Origin: Oscillospiraceae bacterium
GTDB lineage: Bacteria > Bacillota > Clostridia > Oscillospirales > Acutalibacteraceae
Assembly: GCA_015065545.1 (NCBI GenBank)
Contig: SVQA01000006.1
Coordinates: 62,001 to 126,000, forward strand
Length of the DNA: 64,000 nucleotides
Direction of reading: 5' to 3'
Shown here in pieces: positions 49,342 through 63,653 of this stretch. A model generated the notes under the pieces. It searched no databases and had not been told where the DNA came from. It worked only from the letters and a program-made list of their open reading frames with translations. The position numbers and the translations under genes were made by a program. Every line of letters begins with the position of its first letter. Within the stretch, counting starts at the first letter, position 1.

Positions 49342-49457
<116 letters not shown>

Positions 49458-49495
49458 ACTATTATTTTGTGTCGCTCTCTTCAAGCGACTTCGTT

Positions 49496-62031: not shown

Positions 62032-62060
62032 TTGACAGCATAAAAAAATAGGAGTAAAAT
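62032..62060 (+). promoter_or_regulatory. Sigma-A-type promoter upstream of mgtE leader
   Basis: TTGACA (62032-62037) - 17 nt - TAAAAT (62055-62060). Confidence 0.7.
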
Positions 62061-62130
62061 TATTTTTTAGAGTAAACTTATTTTGCTCTTTCTATATTAT
62101 ATTATTGTGAGGTGAAAGTTAATGGACGCA

Positions 62131-62249
62131 GGAAGTAGTACCGGCACTGTTCCCGGGCGAAGTTGCACTAATTCTTTTATTCGCAGTGCTTTCACTGCGT
62201 ACATTACCTTAGCACTTTAAAAACCCCGGAACCGTGTCTTTTTACTTCC
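62131..62249 (+). ncRNA. Candidate structured 5' leader (possible cis-regulatory RNA) of mgtE
   Basis: GGAAGTA (62131-62137) pairs TACTTCC (62243-62249); GGCACtGTTCCcGGG (62143-62157) pairs CCCcGGAACcGTGTC (62224-62238); internal perfect hairpin CGCAGTG-CTTT-CACTGCG (62182-62199). Confidence 0.6.
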
Positions 62250-62276
62250 GCCTATTAATTTTAGGAGGAAAAGACT

Positions 62277-63653
62277 ATGGAAAGGAATTATGTAACTGTC
62301 GATGTTACTATCGGCAAGCTCCTTGACGAGAAAAAATACAAAACTCTCAAGGACATCCTCAGCACAATGAATGCCTACGACATTGCTGTGCTTTTGGAGG
62401 ATATGCACGACTCAAAGATTCAACTTCTTTTCAGAATGCTGCCCAAAGAGCTTGCTGCTGATGTTTTCGTTGAAATGGACGAAGAAACTCAGGAGTTTCT
62501 CATCAAGGGCTTCTCTGATGCTGAGCTTAAAGAGGTTATCGGCGAACTTTCTGCCGATGATGCTGTTGATATTATCGAGGAAATGCCTGCAAACGTTGTA
62601 AAGCGTATTCTCCGTCAGGCAGACCCCGAAACAAGAAAACAAATCAACGAACTATTAAAATATCCCGATGACTGCGCGGGCTCCATTATGACAACGGAGT
62701 TTGTATCGCTGCGGCCCAATATGACGGTTGAGGAAGCTATCAAGCGAATCCGCCGTACAGGTGTTGACAAGGAAACAATTTACACCTGTTATGTTGTAGC
62801 CAGTGACGGCAAGCTCATCGGTATCACCACCATCAAAGACCTGCTTCTTGCAGAAGAGGACGAAGTCATCGAGTCTTTGATGGAAACAAACGTTATCTCT
62901 GTGGGCACTCTTGACGACCAGGAGCTTGTTGCCCAGACCATCAACAACTACGACTTCCTGGCTCTGCCTGTTGTAGATACAGAAAACAGACTCGTTGGTA
63001 TCGTTACCATCGACGATGCTGTTGATGTTATGGTTGAAGAAACCACCGAGGATATTCAGAAGATGGCGGCTATCGCCTCCACCGACAAGCCCTACACAAG
63101 AGTGGGTGTTTTTGAAACCCTGTGGCATCGTGTCCCTTGGTTATTACTTCTTATGATATCCTCAACTTTTACGGGTATAATAATCGCAGGCTACGAAGAA
63201 AGACTTGCAGGCTCTCTGATTCTCACAGCGTTCATTCCTATGCTGATGGGTACAGGCGGTAACGCAGGCAGTCAGTCCTCGGTTACTATTATCCGAAGCT
63301 TATCCCTTGACGAAATTGAATTCAAGGATATTTTCTGGGTTATGTTCAAAGAATGCCGTGTATCCATCCTTTGCGGTATAATACTCGGTGCAGTAAACTT
63401 CGGAAAAATCCTTCTTATCGATGGCTGGATGCTCCACAACGACGAAATAACCGTTTGGATTTCCCTTGTAGTAAGCTTAACCCTTGTTGTCACCATAATC
63501 GTTGCAAAGATCATCGGATGCTCTCTGCCTATGATTGCAAAGAAGCTTCATCTAGACCCTGCGGTTATGGCAAGCCCCTTCATTACAACTATCGTCGATG
63601 TAGTTTCCCTGCTTGTATATTTCTGGATAGCCACTTCTATACTCCATATATAA
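62277..63653 (+). CDS. mgtE: Magnesium transporter MgtE
   Basis: N-domain LSADDAVDIIEEMPANVVKRIL, CBS pair, GTGGNAGSQSSVTIIRSL, DPAVMASPFITTIVDVVSLLVYF; RBS taggagg. Confidence 0.96.
   Translation: MERNYVTVDVTIGKLLDEKKYKTLKDILSTMNAYDIAVLLEDMHDSKIQLLFRMLPKELAADVFVEMDEETQEFLIKGFSDAELKEVIGELSADDAVDIIEEMPANVVKRILRQADPETRKQINELLKYPDDCAGSIMTTEFVSLRPNMTVEEAIKRIRRTGVDKETIYTCYVVASDGKLIGITTIKDLLLAEEDEVIESLMETNVISVGTLDDQELVAQTINNYDFLALPVVDTENRLVGIVTIDDAVDVMVEETTEDIQKMAAIASTDKPYTRVGVFETLWHRVPWLLLLMISSTFTGIIIAGYEERLAGSLILTAFIPMLMGTGGNAGSQSSVTIIRSLSLDEIEFKDIFWVMFKECRVSILCGIILGAVNFGKILLIDGWMLHNDEITVWISLVVSLTLVVTIIVAKIIGCSLPMIAKKLHLDPAVMASPFITTIVDVVSLLVYFWIATSILHI

Follow-up and report, generated by a model that had tools for sequence, protein, structure and literature searches.

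A conserved upstream open reading frame and competing helices in mgtE leaders of Clostridia: a candidate ribosome-mediated attenuator

The mgtE leader and its upstream open reading frame

The window analyzed here is a 64,000-nucleotide stretch of the genome of an Oscillospiraceae bacterium (assembly GCA_015065545.1, contig SVQA01000006.1, positions 62,001 to 126,000), near the end of which lies mgtE, encoding a magnesium transporter. The gene is preceded by a leader of about 210 nt, from the promoter to the mgtE ATG at 62277 (Table 1), and boxes resembling those of this promoter are found at the same location in relatives. An initial annotation of this DNA had described a TTGACA-N17-TAAAAT promoter, a leader of this length, a long-range helix (P2 in Table 1) with outer closing pairs, a 7-bp hairpin, and a CCTA/TAGG pairing by the mgtE ribosome-binding site (RBS); all of these are present in the sequence. 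Its description of the region as a structured cis-regulatory leader also holds, as the helices have the comparative support presented below. The free leader is predicted to fold at -61.1 kcal/mol, as compared to -48.3 ± 4.2 for shuffled sequences (z = -3.0; 0 of 200 shuffles as good), and no intrinsic terminator was found within it.

Table 1 Features of the window (coordinates of the 64,000-nucleotide stretch)
Feature	Position	Strand	Remarks
5S rRNA gene	49343-49459	-	Sole Rfam match at gathering threshold in the window
Promoter TTGACA-N17-TAAAAT	62032..62060	+	11/12 consensus matches; TTGACA 62032-62037, TAAAAT 62055-62060
uORF Shine-Dalgarno GAGGTGA	62109..62115	+	Conserved GAGGYGA in relatives
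P1 5' strand	62121..62129	+	Start codon and codons 2-3; extends outward via the spacer to the Shine-Dalgarno sequence
uORF, MDAGSSTGTVPGRSCTNSFIRSAFTAYITLAL	62122..62220	+	32 codons and TAA; ATG 62122, TAA 62218-62220
P2 5' strand, GCAGGAAGTAGTACCGGCACTGTTCCC	62128..62154	+	Codon 3 to codon 11; E -26.4, z -5.0
Local 7-bp hairpin CGCAGTG-CTTT-CACTGCG	62182..62199	+	Overlaps P1 3' strand
P1 3' strand, TGCGTACATTA	62196..62206	+	Close to uORF end
P2 3' strand, CGGAACCGTGTCTTTTTACTTCCGCC	62227..62252	+	
P3 5' strand (anti-Shine-Dalgarno)	62232..62255	+	Same segment as P2 3' strand; E -13.6, z -2.3
P3 3' strand	62261..62279	+	mgtE Shine-Dalgarno sequence and start
mgtE Shine-Dalgarno AGGAGG	62263-62268		
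mgtE, magnesium transporter	62277..63653	+	TIGR00400 470 bits; Pfam MgtE_N, CBS, MgtE

What the initial annotation overlooked is the core of the leader, a conserved upstream open reading frame (uORF) with its own Shine-Dalgarno (SD) sequence. In a DNA search covering 59 relatives, the best-conserved part of the leader was window 62109-62168 and not the long helix. The uORF peptide begins MDAGSSTGTVPGRS, and the consensus among homologs is M-[DE]-A-[GD]-[SG]-[SNT]-x-G-...-R-S. Conservation covers the first ~14 codons and does not extend to the C-terminal remainder; the homologous uORFs range from 18 to 57 codons, differ in length by whole codons, and start with ATG, TTG, or GTG only. Among 100 non-redundant uORFs, codons that differed ahead of the conserved Arg were conservative in frame 0 alone (mean BLOSUM +0.82); the two other frames scored -0.75 and -0.63, and the null from 200 column shuffles was -0.31 ± 0.27, with a maximum of 0.47. 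Position 2 was Asp or Glu in 98 of these 100 uORFs and position 4 was acidic in 20, while no acidic or proline cluster was found in the peptides.

The conserved Arg near codon 13 (window 62158-62160; codons 11-14 in homologs) is nearly always encoded by CGA. The first CGA past codon 8 was in frame in 75 of 86 cases, and positions 9-16 held 76 CGA codons versus 38 other Arg codons. This near-invariant CGA, which is part of neither P1 nor the P2 core, is not explained by either helix; the residues flanking the Arg vary (GRS, PRS, ERW, KRC). The Ser at codons 5-6 is always encoded by AGY.

Helices joining the uORF to the mgtE Shine-Dalgarno sequence

In the homologous leaders, P1 pairs the uORF SD and start with the 3' end of the same uORF, the 3' partner lying a median of 67 nt past the ATG. 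P2 pairs uORF codons 4-10 with the segment ahead of the gene SD, and P3 pairs this pre-SD segment with the gene SD itself. P2 and P3 are mutually exclusive, and in most leaders both draw on one and the same segment. Because P1 crosses P2, the two would make a pseudoknot if both form; for the same reason, nested folding cannot hold the two together. The loops between the helices vary widely in length.

Comparative support for the helices was obtained by a re-pairing test, in which the 5' and 3' strands were swapped between species in 2000 permutations. The native P1 pairs gave -20.2 kcal/mol versus -16.1 kcal/mol for re-paired strands (z = -17.7), and the z-scores of P2 and P3 were -8.8 and -10.1, respectively; for each of the three helices, 0 of 2000 permutations were as good. 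The upstream-region control gave z = -0.7; in a further control, pairing codons 11-17 with the 3' segment yielded z = -5.1, a signal that may be an extension of P2. It should be noted that kinship can influence these z-scores, close relatives improving the swapped pairs and not worsening them. Each P1 position in the SD and spacer shows several standard pair types, with spacer positions reaching six, and compensated variants of the near-invariant P1 core include GGATGC/GCATCT (L104), GAACGC/GCGTTC (L163), and GGAAAA/TTTTCC (L043). P1 is strong across homologs but weak in the window's own sequence (z = -0.8), where it competes with a local hairpin. The initial annotation had named covariation in homologous leaders as the evidence its helices called for, and the re-pairing test provides support of this comparative kind for P1, P2, and P3.

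The stop codon of the uORF lies directly after P1. Using a fixed search window, we found the frame-0 stop ≤12 nt from the P1 3' end in 67-72% of the leaders, as compared to 11-20% for the other frames, and the ORF closed before P1 in 5 of 98 leaders in frame 0 versus 34 and 46 in the other frames. Judged by these sequence patterns, the uORF is conserved as a coding sequence and its extent is tied to P1. Since its core has the SD, start, and stop of a short coding sequence, a ribosome most likely reads it.

In the predicted fold of the free window leader, P2 is formed and the mgtE SD is open; when codons 1-9 are blocked, as ribosomes would do, the minimum-energy fold turns to P3 and the SD is hidden. 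Across 93 leaders, blocking codons 4-10 lowered the predicted SD accessibility by >0.1 in 18 leaders and raised it by that margin in 3 (p=7e-4), whereas upstream control masking gave p=0.6; blocking codons 11-17 lowered the accessibility as well. The effect was modest (mean -0.06), and for this reason thermodynamic masking was not used as main evidence. In the window, masking other regions of the leader, the upstream control included, also closed the SD, and the two states are therefore predicted to be close in energy.

Distribution, gene context, and M-boxes in series

The element was searched for with two sequence-only models, R1 and R2, consisting of the SD and 14 codons. In the same genus, an SD and uORF stand ahead of nearly every mgtE with intact upstream DNA, and no uORF was recognized in one leader (L063). 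At the order level, the element occurs in many genera (71 of 295 genomes, a tally that includes rpsG and other false matches); within the class, 36 of 391 genomes were matched, and within the phylum 12 of 349, a few weak matches of the latter being chance. The weak R1 matches in family f14 proved to be rpsG (MDAANNTGSAVKKRED...), and those of L154 and L159 lie inside a dnaX-like gene; these were discarded as false positives. A pattern scan of genome contigs returned 31 stretches, none of them genuine apart from L079 and L089, and a plasmid blastn search gave chance AT-rich matches only.

A total of 132 leaders were collected; the uORF is conserved in more than 130 leaders from Clostridia and beyond. 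The gene that follows is mgtE in ~117 leaders, a P-type ATPase in 11, a CNNM gene in one (L161), and an mgtE paralog in one (L163); for the two P-type ATPases tested, the nearest families were magnesium-translocating ATPases. A complete M-box is located just upstream of the element in 13 loci (L079, L113, L149, L156, L193-L195, L198, and L206-L210), and this series arrangement is found in 9 of the 11 ATPase leaders. Eight of the 13 loci were inspected, and in the majority of them a hairpin and U-run belonging to the M-box come between it and the uORF. A link of the element to Mg2+ is supported by this gene context of mgtE, Mg2+ P-type ATPases, CNNM, and M-boxes in series.

In two of the Mg2+ P-type ATPase leaders (L110 and L122), the uORF lies very near the start codon of the ATPase gene and overlaps it; P1 could not be detected in either, its position being occupied by a short GC hairpin. 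Locus L156 (genome G206) carries tandem uORFs behind its M-box, MDAGSRRKYSLN... followed by MESGSSKRSPEPDGR..., separated by a terminator-like hairpin. In L161, the uORF is divergent (MDDGGSTDAEDDNFALLVLHLIL); together with a long hairpin carrying a T-run, it stands ahead of the CNNM-family gene, which is possibly a further member of the regulon. Terminator-like hairpins replace the SD hairpin in L156, L161, and L163, which suggests that the front end of the element may also drive transcription attenuation. A second type of uORF, [MV]-T-[NS]-[GS]-D-S-[YC]-G..., follows a GAGGTGA in L064, L065, L213, L215, and L216, before a divergent mgtE paralog of the same genus and with intrinsic-terminator-like hairpins downstream of the uORF; this type may be a relative of the element that works by transcription attenuation.

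A proposed attenuator and its alternatives

The leader is probably a ribosome-mediated attenuator, in which translation of the uORF would turn mgtE off and failed translation in low Mg2+ would turn it on. Its architecture is well supported and has the marks of a leader-ORF attenuator, namely, a short conserved coding ORF with SD, start, and stop (sequence and codon evidence), and exclusive helices, of which one shares bases with the ORF and the other hides the SD of the gene. We infer the ON/OFF direction, Mg2+ as the cue, uORF translation in vivo, and early ribosome abortion as the sensing step.

As proposed, P1 pairing could close the uORF by masking its SD and start, P2 would keep the mgtE SD free, and P3 would hide it. 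Ribosomes initiating on and crossing the uORF would melt P1 and P2; as P2 would be destroyed by this translation, P3 would then hide the mgtE SD and shut the gene off. Low Mg2+ would destabilize ribosomes, so that uORF translation would fail or abort early; a ribosome dropping off early would let P1 close the uORF, P2 would form, and mgtE would be translated. With a ribosome at the stop codon, the 3' strand of P1 would be covered; completed translation would therefore keep the uORF open, resulting in a self-reinforcing switch.

This attenuator reading draws on the coding signature in frame 0 only, the frame-specific stop position, the re-pairing support for P1, P2, and P3, the switch from P2 to P3 upon masking, the Mg2+ transporter genes downstream, and the mgtQ precedent. 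Counted against it were the modest masking effect, the weakness of P1 in the window, the unexplained CGA codon, the closing of the window SD by control masking, and the z-score of the codons 11-17 control.

Leader ORFs read by ribosomes ahead of Mg2+ transporters are found in the enterobacterial MgtL and mgtM-mgtP systems. Those leaders encode Pro- and acid-rich peptides and act by transcription or Rho termination; in contrast, the Clostridia element has no proline cluster, and no terminator was found in the leader of the window. In Salmonella mgtQ, acidic codons 2 and 5 lower uORF translation and raise mgtB translation, the acidic early residues serving ribosome destabilization in low Mg2+, and the translation of the uORF and that of the transporter are inversely related (PMC8092293). 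Similarities to mgtQ lie in the short uORF with an acidic residue 2 ahead of an Mg2+ transporter and in alternative helices that take in uORF codons, one of them hiding the transporter RBS (PMC8092293). However, the ON helix of mgtQ is made of regions 2 and 3, with region 1 carried by the uORF, whereas that of the Clostridia element contains uORF codons 4-10. Furthermore, in the latter the 3' end of the uORF closes off the start of the same uORF (P1), this helix crosses P2, and the distribution of the element extends across Clostridia; no sequence relation was obvious by inspection, and homology is not claimed.

The M-box (ykoK leader, RF00380) likewise controls mgtE and mgtA-type genes and stands in series with the element at the 13 loci above, but it is an aptamer without an ORF. 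In Mycobacterium tuberculosis pe20, an M-box controls a short uORF with a conserved N-terminus, the peptide being described as mycobacteria-specific (PMC12810186); the order of an M-box and then a short conserved uORF is similar, while the Clostridia element is usually without an M-box. Finally, the mgtE motif SRC-65-1, an orphan structured mgtE leader with its SD in a stem, has been reported from Thioalkalivibrio alone and put forward as a candidate riboswitch, its description mentioning no uORF (PMC11109978). It differs from the Clostridia element in taxonomic range, and the two are set apart by range and description, not by consensus.

The same device could also be turned on by a ribosome that stalls at G/P-Arg(CGA)-Ser or terminates slowly at the stop codon, leaving P1 open while P2 forms (ErmC-like). 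Both the near-exclusive use of CGA for the Arg at codons 11-14 and the placement of the stop codon, at which a terminating ribosome would sit right over the 3' strand of P1, agree with such a stall; yet a ribosome at codon 13 would also cover codons 9-17, and with them the inner part of P2, masking codons 11-17 reduces rather than raises the predicted SD accessibility, and the residues around the Arg are variable. We therefore consider stalling unlikely. A true riboswitch, in which Mg2+ or some other ligand would be bound by the pseudoknot-like P1/P2 fold and the ORF would be incidental, would accommodate the conserved nucleotides outside the helices, the crossing helices, and the Mg2+ transporter context. 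Frame-specific codon conservation and the position of the stop would nevertheless be unexpected in a non-coding aptamer, the inter-helix loops are highly variable, and Mg2+ stabilizing P1/P2 would turn an importer on at high Mg2+, which is the wrong sign; this explanation appears quite improbable. The metal-responsive RNA entertained in the initial annotation, taken in the sense of a metal-binding aptamer, is probably not what the leader encodes; its conserved core is a coding sequence.

A functional small protein as the product of the uORF, with RNA pairing being secondary, would fit the conservation of the 14 N-terminal residues. It sits poorly with a C-terminal half that is unconserved and of such variable length, and with a uORF that is tied to Mg2+ transporter leaders and ends at P1, and we regard it as very improbable. 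A divergent M-box, also suggested initially, would share the downstream mgtE and a similar length; however, RF00380 has no match in the window, leader included, nor in the rest of its genome, in agreement with the earlier statement that this is not a classical M-box, and in 13 loci a complete and separate M-box precedes the element, mostly with its own hairpin and U-run where checked. The proposal is thus extremely unlikely. The covariance-model searches that had been suggested (M-box, T-box, and others) gave no significant match: at the leader, no Rfam family reached threshold and E-values up to 10 brought chance matches only, and with Rfam 15, the only matches in 60 loci besides the window were to M-box, tRNA, T-box, and TPP, and none of these corresponded to the element itself. 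No description of the element was found in the open-access literature (supplementary tables and subscription papers were beyond the reach of the search).

The position of the element before Mg2+ transporters across many Clostridia suggests that these bacteria use the ribosome as a sensor of Mg2+ shortage. We tentatively put forward that this ribosome-read attenuator is a widespread and previously undescribed Mg2+ sensor of Clostridia, apparently independent of mgtL/mgtQ, with a start-to-end latch and, where an M-box stands in series, AND-logic. If so, it would explain the control of Mg2+ uptake in many Clostridia, animal-gut lineages included, that have no M-box before mgtE, and ribosome-based Mg2+ sensing would have arisen outside Proteobacteria. 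It would also offer a testable device, in which the 3' end of a short ORF shuts off the start of that ORF. In genomes with the series arrangement, expression would require that two sensors of one ion, an RNA and the ribosome, both allow it; these tandem leaders place an aptamer and a translation-based sensor on one transcript, where the two can be compared in a natural setting.
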